From assembly GCA_949287065.1 (NCBI GenBank), contig CASEEV010000012.1, positions 62,001 to 126,000 of the forward strand: DNA of 64,000 nt, written 5' to 3'. Below, in pieces: positions 13,721 through 58,105 of this stretch; position 1 is the stretch's first letter; the number at the start of each line of letters is the position of its first letter. The notes below the pieces were generated by a model that searched no databases, had not been told where the DNA came from, and worked only from the letters and a program-made list of their open reading frames with translations. Position numbers and translations under genes: made by a program. This DNA is from an uncultured Collinsella sp. GTDB taxonomy: Bacteria > Actinomycetota > Coriobacteriia > Coriobacteriales > Coriobacteriaceae.

Positions 13721-13772
13721 GGCAAACAGCGGTACCGCGCGGGCAGCACCCGCGCTTACCTGCACAATCGCA

Positions 13773-13870
13773 TATCACCGGGGAGCTTGCAGGACAGGAC
13801 GGCAGGCTGAGAGGGGGCGCGCCCGCCCCGACCCGCGGAACCTGATATGGGTAATGCCAACGAAGGGAGC
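13773..13870 (+). ncRNA. TPP riboswitch controlling thiC operon
   Basis: The conserved core pieces are present in order: ACCGGGGAGCUU, GGCUGAGAGGG, CCCGACCC, GGAACCUGAUAUGGGUAAU, GCCAACGAAGGGAG. These match the thi-box consensus. The final GAAGGGAG is also the thiC ribosome binding site, eight bases before ATG 13878, so TPP binding would probably sequester it and block translation. It regulates thiC-thiM-thiE-thiD. Confidence 0.95.
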
Positions 13871-13877
13871 CTTGCCA

Positions 13878-15257
13878 ATGAGCATGCAATCCAACAACAG
13901 CACCGCCGCCGAGCAGAACGCGCCCGTTTTGCGCCCCGACGGCACCCCGTGCGTCACGCAGATGGACTTTGCCCGCGCCGGCGTGATCACCCCCGCCATG
14001 AAGTCCGTAGCCGAGCGCGAGAACCGCGACCCCGAGTTCATCCGCGCGGGCGTGGCGGTCGGCCGCATTGCCATTCCGGCCAACATCCGTCACCTCGAGA
14101 TGGGCCTCGAGCCGCGCGGCGTGGGCGCGGGCCTCTCGACCAAGGTCAACGTGAACCTGGGCATCTCGGGCGACGTTGCCAACGCCGACGTTGAGTGGGA
14201 GAAGGTCCGCACGGCCGAGAAGTTCGGCGCCGACGCCATCATGGACCTCTCCAACTCCGGCAAGACGCGCTTCTTCCGCCAGGAGCTCGTGCAGAAGACC
14301 CCGCTCATGGTGGGCACCGTGCCCATGTACGACGCCATCGGCTACATGGAGAAGCCCCTCGTGAAGCTCACCGTGGACGACTTGCTCGAGGTCACGCGCG
14401 CGCACGCCGAGGACGGCGTGGACTTCCTCACCATTCACTGCGGCATCAACAAGTCGGTCATCAAGACCTTCAAGGAGACCGGCCGCCTCATGAACATCGT
14501 GAGCCGCGGCGGCTCGCTGCTCTTTGGCTGGATGGAGGTCACCGGCAACGAGAACCCCTTCTACGAGTACTACGACGAGATCCTGAAGATCTGCCACGAG
14601 TACGACGTGACCATCTCGCTGGGCGACTCCTGCCGCCCAGGCTGCCTCTACGACGCCAACGACGCCACCGAGACCGCCGAGATGATCGAGCTCGGCAAGC
14701 TCACCAAGCGCGCTTGGGACGCCGGCGTGCAGGTCATGATCGAGGGCCCGGGCCACATGCCCATCAACGAGATCGAGGCCAACGTGGCCATGGAGAAGAG
14801 CCTGTGCCACGGCGCGCCCTACTACGTACTCGGCCCCCTCGTGACCGACCTCGGCGTGGGATACGACCACATCACCGCGGCCATCGGCGGCGCCATCAGC
14901 GCGAGCGCAGGCGCCGACTTCCTCTGCTACGTGACGCCCGCCGAGCACCTGTGCCTGCCCAACGCCAAGGACGTGCTCGACGGCCTCATCGCCACCAAGA
15001 TCGCCGCGCATGCCGCCGACATCGCCAAGGGCGTGCCCGGCGCACAGGAGGCCGACAACCGCATGGGCGACGCGCGCCGCCGCCTCGCCTGGGATGAGAT
15101 GTGGCAGTACGCCCTCGACCCCGTGACCTCCAAGGCCCGCTACGAGGCCTCCCCAGCTGCCACCGAGGGCACCTGCACCATGTGCGGCAAGATGTGCGCC
15201 GTCCGCACGGTCAACAAGGTCTTCGAGGGCACCACGATCGACCTCGGCATGGAGTAA
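13878..15257 (+). CDS. thiC: Phosphomethylpyrimidine synthase ThiC
   Basis: ThiC is the unusual radical SAM enzyme that converts aminoimidazole ribotide to HMP phosphate. Visible landmarks are RDPEFIRAGVAVGRIAIPAN, GLSTKVNVNLG, HCGINKS, SRGGSLLFGWM, GDSCRPG, EGPGHMPINEIEANV, YDHITAAIGGA and the C-terminal iron-sulfur motif CTMCGKMC near residue 440, in the spacing used by clostridial-type ThiC. Length 459 aa fits that short form. Start ATG 13878 is set by the riboswitch-embedded GAAGGGAG. It is the first gene of the thiC-M-E-D operon. Confidence 0.97.
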   Translation: MSMQSNNSTAAEQNAPVLRPDGTPCVTQMDFARAGVITPAMKSVAERENRDPEFIRAGVAVGRIAIPANIRHLEMGLEPRGVGAGLSTKVNVNLGISGDVANADVEWEKVRTAEKFGADAIMDLSNSGKTRFFRQELVQKTPLMVGTVPMYDAIGYMEKPLVKLTVDDLLEVTRAHAEDGVDFLTIHCGINKSVIKTFKETGRLMNIVSRGGSLLFGWMEVTGNENPFYEYYDEILKICHEYDVTISLGDSCRPGCLYDANDATETAEMIELGKLTKRAWDAGVQVMIEGPGHMPINEIEANVAMEKSLCHGAPYYVLGPLVTDLGVGYDHITAAIGGAISASAGADFLCYVTPAEHLCLPNAKDVLDGLIATKIAAHAADIAKGVPGAQEADNRMGDARRRLAWDEMWQYALDPVTSKARYEASPAATEGTCTMCGKMCAVRTVNKVFEGTTIDLGME

Positions 15258-50250: not shown

Positions 50251-51630
50251 CTACGCCAGGTCCTCTCCGTTGGACTCGAAGGCGCGCTTGAACCACGCGA
50301 AGCTCTTCTTGGGCGTGCGCGCAAGATGACCCTCGCCCTCGGCGGCGTAGTCAACGTACACCGCGCCGTAGCGCTTTTCGATATCGCCGCTCGAAGACGG
50401 GATGTCGATAAGGCCCCAACCGAGGTAGCCGATCACCCGGGCGCCGTCCTTCTCGACCGCGTCCCTCATGGCCTTGATGTGGTCGCGGTGGTAGCTGATG
50501 CGGTACTCGTCGTCGATCATCGAACCGTCGGCGGGCAGCTCCTCGCGCCAGCCGATGCCGTTCTCAAGCGAGAAGACCGGCAGGCCCGTGCGCTCGTAGA
50601 TCTCGGAGAGCGTGCGGCGATACCCGAGCGGGTCGATCTCCCAGCCCCACTCGTTGGCCTCGACCAGCGGGTTCTTTACATGGCCCGCATCGCCCAGCAC
50701 ACAGGCGGGCGTGTCGGCAGAAACGCCGTCGGCCGAGAAGCACTGCGAGCGATAGTAGCTCAGGGAGGCGAAGTCGTTCTTCATGCGCGCGATGTCGGCG
50801 AGCTCGTCGGCGGTCATGTCGAGCTCGATGCCGCGGCTGCGCAGGTAGGCCGTGTAGTACGCCGGGTACCGCCCGGTGGCGCACACGTCGAGCACGAGCC
50901 AGTCGCAGAAGCGCTCGGCCTGGGTGGCGAGCAGCACGTCGGCGGGCGCAGGGGTTGCCGGGTAGATGGGCGTGAAGGCGCACATGCCGCCGATCTTGCA
51001 GTCGGGGTAGTTCTCGTGCAGGTAGTTGCACACGCGGGCATGGGCGACCATCACGTTGTGACCGAGCTGCAGTACCTTGGCCTCGCTGGCGGGGTCGGCC
51101 GGGTTCTCGGGGATCGGCGCGCCCGAGATGTCAAAGCCCATGGGCAGGCCGTGCAGGTTCTGCTCGTTAAAGGTGAGCCACCACTTGACCTTGGGCGCCA
51201 GGCGGTCGATCACGACCTTGGCGTACTCCACAAAGGCGTCGACCACGTGCTTGGAGGCAAAGCCGCCGAACTTCTCGGCCAGCGCAAGCGGCATGTCGAA
51301 GTGATACAGGCACACCATGGGCGCGATGCCGTTGGCGATGAGATCGTCGGCGAGCGCCTCGTAGTAGGCCAGGCCCTCCTCGTTGACCGCGCCCTCGCCC
51401 GCAGGGATAACGCGCGACCACGAGGTCTGAAAACGGTAGCAGTTCATGCCCATCTCGGCCATGAGCTCGTTGTCCTCGCGGAAACGATGGTAGCCGTCCA
51501 CGGCCTCCTCCCACGCGCCCTGCTTGTGCTCGTACACGCTCGGCCCCTTGCCGCCCTGGTGCTGGGCGCCGTCGTACTGCATGCTCGAAACCGAGTTGCC
51601 CCACAAAAACCCTTTCGGAAGCACTGACAC
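50251..51630 (-). CDS. GH1 6-phospho-beta-glucosidase
   Basis: The 459-aa retaining glycosidase has the acid/base in WLTFNEQN and the nucleophile in VFSLENGIG. The phosphate-recognition triad pattern SSSGDIEKRYGAVYVD near the C-terminus indicates 6-phospho-beta-glucosides, that is, sugars imported by a PTS. The start was set at GTG 51630, directly after GGAGAGGCTC, giving the standard VLPKGFLWGNS beginning; a longer ATG frame would add 22 unlikely residues. It ends SNGEDLA, like the two other GH1 genes. No PTS gene is adjacent. Confidence 0.92.
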   Translation of the reverse strand: MSVLPKGFLWGNSVSSMQYDGAQHQGGKGPSVYEHKQGAWEEAVDGYHRFREDNELMAEMGMNCYRFQTSWSRVIPAGEGAVNEEGLAYYEALADDLIANGIAPMVCLYHFDMPLALAEKFGGFASKHVVDAFVEYAKVVIDRLAPKVKWWLTFNEQNLHGLPMGFDISGAPIPENPADPASEAKVLQLGHNVMVAHARVCNYLHENYPDCKIGGMCAFTPIYPATPAPADVLLATQAERFCDWLVLDVCATGRYPAYYTAYLRSRGIELDMTADELADIARMKNDFASLSYYRSQCFSADGVSADTPACVLGDAGHVKNPLVEANEWGWEIDPLGYRRTLSEIYERTGLPVFSLENGIGWREELPADGSMIDDEYRISYHRDHIKAMRDAVEKDGARVIGYLGWGLIDIPSSSGDIEKRYGAVYVDYAAEGEGHLARTPKKSFAWFKRAFESNGEDLA

Positions 51631-51715
51631 GAGCCTCTCCTCTCGTCGGAATGTGTTGTTCTCGTCCACTGTCCACAAGGATACCCAACTGTGCACCCGT
51701 CACACGATCGCCCCC

Positions 51716-51945: not shown

Positions 51946-53709
51946 TTAGCCGCGGCGCTCCTTGATCTCGGCGGTGATGTCGGCGATGAACTCGTCGAGG
52001 TCGCGCGTCACCGTCTCGTTGGAGCGGTCGCGGACCGACACGTTGCCGGCCTCGACCTCCTTCTCGCCGATGATGAACATGTATGGCGGACGGTCGATGT
52101 TGCGAGCCTCGCGAATCTTGTAGCCGATCTTCTCGTCGCGCTCGTCGAGGACGGCGCGGATGCCGGCGGCCTCCAGGCGCTCGGTAACGCTGCGCGCGTA
52201 GTCGCGGCTCTTCTCCGAGACGGGCAGAACCTTGACCTGGCAGGGCGCAAGCCAGGTGGGGAACTTGCCGGCAAAGTGCTCGATCAGGATGCCGATGAAG
52301 CGCTCGATGGAGCCAAAGCACACGCGGTGCAGCATGATCGGACGCTTCTTGGAGCCGTCGGCGTCCGTGTACTCGAGGTCAAAGTTGAGCGGCATCTGGA
52401 AGTCGAGCTGCACGGTGCCGCACTGCCAGGTGCGACCGAGCGAGTCCTCCAGGTGGAAGTCGATCTTGGGACCGTAGAAGGCGCCGTCGCCCTCGTTGAT
52501 GACGTAGTCCTTGCCCAGACGGTCGAGCGCCTCGCGCAGGCCGGCCTCGGCGGCGGCCCAATCCTCGTCGGAGCCCATGGAGTCCTCGGGGCGGGTGGAG
52601 AGCTCGAGGTGGTAGGTGAAGCCGAACTTCTCGTACACGGAGTCGATGAGGTTCACCACGCCCACGATCTCGTCGGTGAGCTGGTCCGGGCGCACGAAGA
52701 GATGGGCGTCGTCCTGGTTGAAGCAGCGCACGCGGAAGAGGCCGTGGAGAGCGCCGCGCAGCTCGTGGCGGTGCACCAGGCCGATCTCGCCGGCGCGGAT
52801 GGGCAGCTCGCGGTAGCTGTGCGGACGGTTCTTGTACACGAGCACGCCGCCCGGGCAGTTCATGGGCTTGATGCAATACTCCTCGTCGTCGATCACGGTG
52901 GAGTACATGTTGTCCTTGTAGTGGTCCCAGTGGCCGGAGGTCTTCCAGAGCTGCTTGTTCATGATGAGCGGCGTGGAGATCTCGACGTAGCCGGCGGCAT
53001 GGTGAATCTCGCGCCAGTAGTCGAGAAGCTCGTTCTTCAGGATCATGCCGTTGGGCAGGAAGAACGGGAAGCCCGGGGCCTCGTCGCGCATCATGAACAG
53101 GTCCATCTCGCGGCCGATCTTGCGGTGGTCGCGCTTTTTGGCCTCCTCGAGCATGCGCAGGTGCTCGTCGAGCTCGGCCTTCGTGGCGAACGCGGTGCCG
53201 TTGACGCGGACGAGCATCTTGTTGTTCTTGTCAGCCTTCCAGTAGGCGCCGGAGACGCCCGTGAGCTTGAAGGCCTTGAGGGCCGTGGTGTAGGTGATGT
53301 GCGGGCCCACGCACATGTCGATGTACTCGCCCTGCTGGAAGAACGTGATGCGCGCGTCGGGGTCAAGGTCGCCGATGTGCTCGACCTTGTACTTCTCGCC
53401 GCGCTCCTCCATGAGGGCGATGGCCTCCTCGCGGGGCAGCTCGAAGACAGTGAACTTGAGGTTCTCCTTCACGATCTTCTTCATCTCGGCCTCGATGGCG
53501 GGCAGGTCGTCCTCGGAGAGCGTCTTATCACCCAGGTCGACGTCGTAGTAGAAGCCGTTGTCGGTGGCGGGACCGTAGGCAAAGTCGGCCTCGGGATACA
53601 GGCGCTTGATGGCCTGGGCCATGATGTGCGCGGCGGAATGGCGAACGACGTGGGTCACCTCGTCAGCCGGAAGATCGGCAACATGGCCGTCGTTGTACAG
53701 TGCCTTCAT
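51946..53709 (-). CDS. thrS: Threonyl-tRNA synthetase ThrS
   Basis: ThrRS charges tRNA-Thr. The 587-aa protein has the editing-domain motif HVVRHSAAHIMAQAI, class II motif 2 RHELRGALHGLFRVRCFNQDDAHLF and motif 3 HRVCFGSIERFIGILIEHF, and the zinc ligands NCPGG and HR. It lacks the N-terminal TGS domain found in longer forms. ATG 53709 follows GAGGAAGAGGTTCCCC. The 5' leader contains a short peptide gene and mutually exclusive stems (53745-53873) that suggest attenuation. Confidence 0.95.
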   Translation of the reverse strand: MKALYNDGHVADLPADEVTHVVRHSAAHIMAQAIKRLYPEADFAYGPATDNGFYYDVDLGDKTLSEDDLPAIEAEMKKIVKENLKFTVFELPREEAIALMEERGEKYKVEHIGDLDPDARITFFQQGEYIDMCVGPHITYTTALKAFKLTGVSGAYWKADKNNKMLVRVNGTAFATKAELDEHLRMLEEAKKRDHRKIGREMDLFMMRDEAPGFPFFLPNGMILKNELLDYWREIHHAAGYVEISTPLIMNKQLWKTSGHWDHYKDNMYSTVIDDEEYCIKPMNCPGGVLVYKNRPHSYRELPIRAGEIGLVHRHELRGALHGLFRVRCFNQDDAHLFVRPDQLTDEIVGVVNLIDSVYEKFGFTYHLELSTRPEDSMGSDEDWAAAEAGLREALDRLGKDYVINEGDGAFYGPKIDFHLEDSLGRTWQCGTVQLDFQMPLNFDLEYTDADGSKKRPIMLHRVCFGSIERFIGILIEHFAGKFPTWLAPCQVKVLPVSEKSRDYARSVTERLEAAGIRAVLDERDEKIGYKIREARNIDRPPYMFIIGEKEVEAGNVSVRDRSNETVTRDLDEFIADITAEIKERRG

Positions 53710-53744
53710 GGGGAACCTCTTCCTCTAGGTGGGGGAATCGCAAG

Positions 53745-53797
53745 AAAAAAGCCCGTGCGCCCAAGGCGACGAGCGATACATGGCGCCTGTCTCGGGC
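53745..53797 (-). terminator. Leader terminator upstream of thrS
   Basis: On the minus strand GCCCG-AGACAG-GCGCC pairs with GGCGC-A-CGGGC, followed by UUUUUU. It lies between the leader peptide and thrS, so it must be bypassed for expression. Confidence 0.7.
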
Positions 53798-53828
53798 CCG
53801 TTGCGGACCATGACGATAGGACAGACGC

Positions 53829-53873
53829 CTAAAGAGTCTGCGTTCGAGCGATGTGCGCAACCAAACGCCGCAT
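53829..53873 (-). CDS. Putative 14-aa leader peptide of thrS
   Basis: ATG 53873 opens a 14-codon frame, MRRLVAHIARTQTL, ending in TAG. Two threonine codons (ACG and ACT) are at positions 11 and 13, just before the stop. GAAGGG stands 11 bases upstream. The stop codon runs into GGCGUCUGUC, which pairs fully (one G-U) with GACAGGCGCC, the 5' side of the thrS terminator. This is the layout of ribosome-mediated attenuation. Translation itself is unproven. Confidence 0.45.
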   Translation of the reverse strand: MRRLVAHIARTQTL

Positions 53874-54004
53874 GTTCTGTGAATCCCTTCCGTAAGCAGG
53901 TAGGTTAGTTTTACCACGCAACAGCGCGGCGGTCTAGCGCAGGCGCGAGCCGAGCGCCCGCCCACACCCCAGATTCATAGCAGCGACGCGCGACGGAAAC
54001 AAAC

Positions 54005-54032
54005 GAGCCCTCCGCCGACAGGCGAAGGGCTC
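54005..54032 (-). terminator. Terminator after zinc-ribbon membrane protein gene
   Basis: On the minus strand GAGCCCTTCGCC pairs with GGCGGAGGGCTC around TGTC, followed by GTTTGTTT. Confidence 0.7.

Positions 54033-54903: not shown

Positions 54904-58105
<3,202 letters not shown>

Follow-up and report, generated by a model that had tools for sequence, protein, structure and literature searches.

A probable threonine-codon leader-peptide regulator in front of thrS in coriobacteria

Results

A threonine-coding ORF and a hairpin precede thrS

We find that thrS, the gene for threonine–tRNA ligase, is very probably under the control of a threonine-specific leader-peptide regulator in a coriobacterium and its relatives, in which a short ORF with Thr codons is followed at a fixed distance by a hairpin that we call P2. 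Ribosome-mediated control of this kind had been proposed from the DNA of this organism alone (the original prediction), and the comparison of relatives lends it strong support, since the start codon and Thr codons of the ORF are conserved and P2 covaries. The window, that is, the whole stretch of 64,000 nucleotides that was analysed, carries on its minus strand, in this order, a promoter-like motif, a 14-codon ORF, P2, a terminator with a U6 run, and thrS. The features are as follows.

53908..53916, minus strand: extended -10-like motif TGGTAAAAC, probable promoter of the leader transcript (motif count in 87 leaders)
53885..53891, minus strand: Shine-Dalgarno-like GGAAGGG of the leader ORF (position read from the sequence; ribosome-binding site and in-frame start found in relatives)
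53829..53873, minus strand: leader ORF of 14 codons, MRRLVAHIARTQTL, stop UAG (start, frame, and Thr codons kept in relatives)
53841..53843, minus strand: Thr codon ACG, 14 nt before P2 (Thr in 80/87 leaders)
53835..53837, minus strand: Thr codon ACT, 8 nt before P2 (Thr in 87/87 leaders)
53782..53829, minus strand: hairpin P2, arms 53820-53829 and 53782-53791 (covariation; folded in the window)
53745..53774, minus strand: intrinsic terminator GCUCGUCGCC-UUG-GGCGCACGGGC then U6, stem 53774-53751, U6 53750-53745 (predicted fold)
53716..53726, minus strand: Shine-Dalgarno region of thrS (read from the sequence)
51946..53709, minus strand: thrS, threonine–tRNA ligase (TIGR00418, 691 bits against a cut-off of 384)

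Because the closest thrS genes are from Olsenella, Thermophilibacter, Collinsella, and related MAGs, the host is placed among the coriobacteria of the Actinomycetota, and the earlier reference to the Firmicutes does not apply. The gene itself, which runs from 53709 on the minus strand, has GAGGAAGAGG in front of its start, and upstream of the leader lies a zinc-ribbon gene with its own terminator at 54005-54032. Three similar large genes, apparent paralogues, flank thrS on the minus strand (50251-51696, 54904-56475, and 56612-58090) and, judged by eye, resemble family 1 (6-phospho-)beta-glucosidases. The window also holds a TPP riboswitch at 13769-13885 on the plus strand (59.4 bits, above the Rfam gathering score).

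The leader ORF is probably read for its threonine codons

The predicted 14-codon frame, with ACG and ACT threonine codons and ending at TAG, is present on the minus strand (53873-53829) and reads ATG CGG CGT TTG GTT GCG CAC ATC GCT CGA ACG CAG ACT CTT TAG. We compared 87 distinct leaders. At -8, counted in nt from the first base of P2, every one of them has a Thr codon (84 ACT, 2 ACA, 1 ACC), and at -14 a Thr codon is found in 80 (ACG 42, ACT 26, ACC 7, ACA 5). Since all four synonymous codons occur at this second position, selection keeps the amino acid there and not the base sequence. ACT, so frequent at -8 (84/87), is yet a minor Thr codon in the genes of the window (19 of 161), and -14 accepts any Thr codon.

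The reading frame stands out from the two others. Thr accounts for 18.8% of the 8 codons preceding the invariant Thr in frame, as against 3.7% and 6.3% out of frame, and an in-frame start with a ribosome-binding site is found in 79/87 leaders, as against 2 and 1; 43 of these 79 starts lie exactly 12 codons ahead of the invariant Thr. The remaining positions vary freely, with 11 synonymous and 40 non-synonymous codon changes in 15 independent close pairs, as one would predict for a peptide whose importance ends once it has been translated. The ORF usually ends in Thr-X-Thr-Ile-stop, Leu replacing Ile in the window, and 57/87 leaders, the window's included, have only two Thr codons. Thr-rich examples are MRPVKGVLAACGTLTLTQTI-stop (L166), ...ATRVTTTVTI-stop (L161), and ...IPTITTTTI-stop (L168). 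Further upstream, the promoter-like motif TGGTA[ACG][ACG][ACG][CT] occurs 73-132 nt ahead of P2 in 50/87 leaders, compared with 0/87 downstream control segments. By these comparative measures, the leader ORF is real and its properties match those of an amino-acid leader peptide.

P2 covaries and keeps a fixed distance from the invariant Thr codon

The original prediction had the segment fused to the stop codon pairing fully, apart from one G-U. Such a stem does exist: P2 starts with the G of the UAG stop, and its 10 bp, one of them U-G, join GGCGUCUGUC (53829-53820) to GACAGGCGCC (53791-53782). When 86 matches are aligned, 13/16 P2 pairs show changes on both sides, for a total of 92 cells, a value matched by 0/500 shuffles, although the count is biased towards the model because this alignment was fitted to a covariance model; P2 covariation of the same sign is seen in a free MAFFT alignment of 28 leaders. 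The apical loop of P2 is variable and not conserved, and the leader as a whole folds better than its shuffles (z -2.3). The lowest three pairs of P2, GGC/GCC, are invariant across 85 distinct sequences, whether or not a terminator is present, and the pairs above them covary.

The position of the stop codon is less strictly kept. Where the stop has shifted one codon on (L178, ACT TAA TC GGCGC), P2 still lies just as far from the Thr codon, and where it has been lost, in the Lancefieldella-type leaders L152 and L153 (ACT ATC GAG GCG) and L158 (ACT ATT AAG GCG), the 5-nt gap between Thr codon and P2 stays. This spacing survives both the shift and the loss of the stop, so that the fixed unit is the Thr codon plus P2 and not the stop codon. 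In these same three leaders, where UAG is lost, the ORF continues into or through P2, with Thr-Glu-Thr-Ile retained.

The terminator is separate from P2 and often missing

A U6-tailed terminator is present in the window, as predicted, but two details of the prediction had to be revised. The segment GACAGGCGCC, taken for the 5' arm of the terminator, is instead the 3' arm of P2; the true arm is GCUCGUCGCC (53774-53765), 7 nt further on, which pairs with GGCGCACGGGC. Moreover, the two folds, said to exclude each other, do not, since the minimum-energy fold holds both P2 and the terminator on separate bases. Across the relatives, a U-tailed terminator lies 2-8 nt past P2 in 57/87 distinct leaders and is missing in 30/87. 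From the U6 run to the thrS start there are 35 nt in the window, with nothing promoter-like between; this leaves no room for a second promoter, and thrS expression from the leader promoter therefore needs readthrough of the terminator.

We searched the leaders for covarying 5-bp pairings among the ORF, P2, and terminator arms and found none beyond P2 itself. A stem P1 (CAGAC/GUCUG) competes with P2, whose 5' arm it overlaps; all 5 of its pairs are possible in 48/87 leaders, and it shows no covariation. P1 was rejected as a conserved competing stem on these two grounds. GGCG/CGCC triples that seemed, on hand reading, to link P2 with the terminator were also dropped as not conserved (e.g., L001, L005, and L160). 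A partition-function calculation with the ribosome-covered part masked did not discriminate, since its control, the E. coli trp leader, behaves the same way, with the terminator formed in every state.

The element is confined to two families

From the alignment of 28 leaders, we built a covariance model, R1, which matches 85 of 398 genomes of the class at E<1e-3, usually once per genome and only in two families. These should be Coriobacteriaceae and Atopobiaceae, going by the genera of the closest thrS genes. Every fetched leader with a credible R1 match precedes thrS, and a phylum-wide R1 search gave no thrS-linked match outside the two families. The lone outside match (G598), about 0.7 Mb from its thrS, and the weak matches L196-L199 were discarded because they do not stand in front of thrS. 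No paralogous element was found elsewhere in the genomes, and no comparable leader ORF upstream of the other synthetase-family matches in the window's own genome, whose starts were picked mechanically and are in some cases wrong.

Aligned across relatives, a check suggested along with the original prediction, the leaders keep start codon, Thr codons, and P2 stem, with compensatory changes. The opposite pattern, a terminator kept where start, Thr codons, or stem are lost, was named there as telling against the model. It does occur, in L091, L093, and L095, as a local loss within one genus. In these three, a GCTCG...CGGGCGTTTTT terminator is retained before thrS, and the leader ORF and P2 are gone.

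Within Coriobacteriaceae, most Collinsella-type genomes are without the element. Four Collinsella-type leaders (L016, L018, L110, and L113) have no ORF or P2, and show a terminator and then a TATAAT-like promoter before thrS; thrS regulation has so been lost or rebuilt in them. In some relatives, such as L009 and L087, the leader directly adjoins the upstream gene.

No T-box or other known RNA class is recognized at thrS

The thrS leader has no Rfam match at gathering scores and none of note in a lax search. The remark that no T-box core is visible was right for thrS, where RF00230 gives no match. T-box-like elements stand before ileS (L212, upstream of 1356, G000:C86:8853-9023) and pheS (L211, G000:C48:6848-7095, minus strand). 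In the window's own genome, these score 52 and 37 bits, respectively, below the curated cut-off of 93, and T-box-like matches were found in 58 of the 60 relatives searched.

Discussion

Proposed mechanism

The ORF, the fixed Thr codons, P2, the terminator, and the linkage to thrS are direct observations, on which the following scheme can be built. When charged Thr-tRNA is scarce, a ribosome would stall with a Thr codon in its A site, and the main stall site would be the invariant codon 8 nt before P2. The spacing suggests that P2 would then lie at the mRNA entry of the ribosome. The mRNA entry is where frameshift-stimulating hairpins sit relative to the ribosome. In the window, with no room for a second promoter before thrS, stalling would have to raise terminator readthrough and hence thrS expression. 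Because no base belongs to both P2 and the terminator, the best candidate for a link between them is steric occlusion: the stalled ribosome, with P2 docked, would physically block folding of the nearby terminator, and in species that lack one a Rho or RNase site may be shielded in its place. We therefore put forward, tentatively and at somewhat less than even confidence, an attenuator without an antiterminator, in which a ribosome held at a fixed-distance hairpin occludes the next hairpin or a Rho/RNase site. In this occlusion scheme, P2 would, with the same reserve, be a relay that brings the ribosome beside the terminator and not one of two alternative folds.

Alternative explanations

A classical trp-type attenuator, in which the position of the ribosome picks between exclusive hairpins (P1 versus P2, or P2 versus the terminator), would account for the trp-leader-like position of the stop codon at the base of P2, for the overlap of P1 with the 5' arm of P2 (all 5 pairs possible in 48/87 leaders), and for an intrinsic terminator between ORF and thrS in the window and in 57/87 leaders. 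We consider it unlikely, given that P1 does not covary and is broken in many leaders that retain P2, that P2 and the terminator have separate arms and form side by side in one fold, and that neither ORF nor P2 has a covarying pairing with either terminator arm; in L160, moreover, a compensated change at the base of P2 has no matching change in the terminator. The textbook exclusive-fold version lacks support in the sequences compared here. Still less probable is control of thrS translation, by reinitiation or masking of its ribosome-binding site, mainly in species without a terminator. The 30/87 leaders of that kind speak for it, as does a distance from P2 to the thrS start that goes down to 39-40 nt in the nearest cases; however, access to the thrS ribosome-binding site is predicted to be equal with P2 formed or masked, and the window does have a terminator.

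The three other readings that we weighed are very improbable. Arrest of the nascent peptide at Gln-Thr-Ile-stop, which would sense a ligand instead of tRNA charging, draws on QTI-stop being the commonest ending (Ile 69/87, Gln 62/87), but Ile gives way to Met, Phe, Leu, Arg, Lys, or Thr and Gln to Glu, Val, Pro, or Thr, whereas Thr is never replaced, and the upstream residues are unconstrained; we hold it to be very unlikely. That the terminator merely ends the upstream gene, with thrS not regulated there, would suit Collinsella L016 and L018, where a terminator and then a TATAAT-like promoter precede thrS with neither ORF nor P2, and also L009 and L087, whose leaders come directly after the upstream gene. 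In the window, however, the zinc-ribbon gene has its own terminator (54005-54032), a promoter-like motif comes next, and just 35 nt lie between the U6 run and the start of thrS, which makes this reading slightly harder still to credit. The strongly conserved hairpin before thrS could finally be a non-coding RNA bound by ThrRS or tRNA, akin to the E. coli thrS operator or a divergent T-box, the ORF being incidental. Yet there is no Rfam match, the apical loop of P2 is free to vary, and the evidence from the reading frame is decisive; an E. coli-type ThrRS operator, with a tRNA-Thr anticodon-like loop overlapping the thrS ribosome-binding site, was looked for and not found in these leaders, where the loop is unconserved and P2 at least 39 nt away. 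The chance of this last reading is accordingly minimal.

Relation to known systems

The original prediction regarded ribosome-mediated attenuation of thrS as uncommon, and it is not unprecedented. In Streptomyces lividans TK24, a thrL peptide, MKRVRPFLETTPGFVPAR-stop, annotated from RNA-seq, lies before thrS, with one hairpin and no U-rich stretch (PMC8079986). It resembles the present leader in several ways: it is a short actinobacterial ORF upstream of thrS, contains two Thr codons, precedes a hairpin (PMC8079986), and has no U-rich terminator, as in 30/87 leaders here; it differs in that its Thr codons lie well before the end of the peptide and in being leaderless. No sequence relation to the present leader was seen, R1 having given no thrS-linked match outside the two families in the genomes searched, and in an actinobacterial genus with genomes of 8-10 Mb the thrS leaders of three genomes showed no thrL-like ORF. 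Leader peptides and attenuators of Actinobacteria were described by Seliverstov et al. in 2005 for trp, leuS, trpS, ilvB, and cys; several of these cases lacked a complete attenuator, and threonine was not among them (PMC1262725). Our search of the literature, with most subscription papers outside it, turned up no earlier report of the present element.

With classical attenuators (E. coli trp, thr, his, and pheST; Streptomyces trpS and leuS, PMC1262725), the element shares the order of cognate-codon ORF, hairpin, terminator, and gene. Unlike in those systems, the arms of P2 and the terminator do not overlap, the terminator is often missing, and there are usually two control codons, one of them at an invariant distance from the hairpin. 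Another likeness is to uORFC-8-2, before cysS in Rhodobacterales (PMC8632094), an ORF with two conserved cognate codons in front of an aminoacyl-tRNA synthetase gene, which has two stems, the second a terminator, and for which no covarying third stem is described (PMC8632094). Its Cys codons, however, are adjacent and inside the first stem, whereas the Thr codons here are outside P2, the nearer one at a fixed 8 nt. As with the T-box riboswitch (RF00230), an aminoacyl-tRNA synthetase gene would be controlled by tRNA charging, but thrS has no T-box match and sensing would be by translation of codons.

Significance

The element described here would give an essential gene an RNA-based control, and it is conserved across two Actinomycetota families from the gut and the mouth. 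Bacteria that have T-box-like elements at ileS and pheS would thus rely on the reading of codons at thrS. An invariant codon, a covarying hairpin, and a terminator that may be present or not do not fit the textbook two-fold switch, and the element may therefore be a clean system in which to ask if termination can be governed by a stalled ribosome when the RNA has no second fold to adopt.
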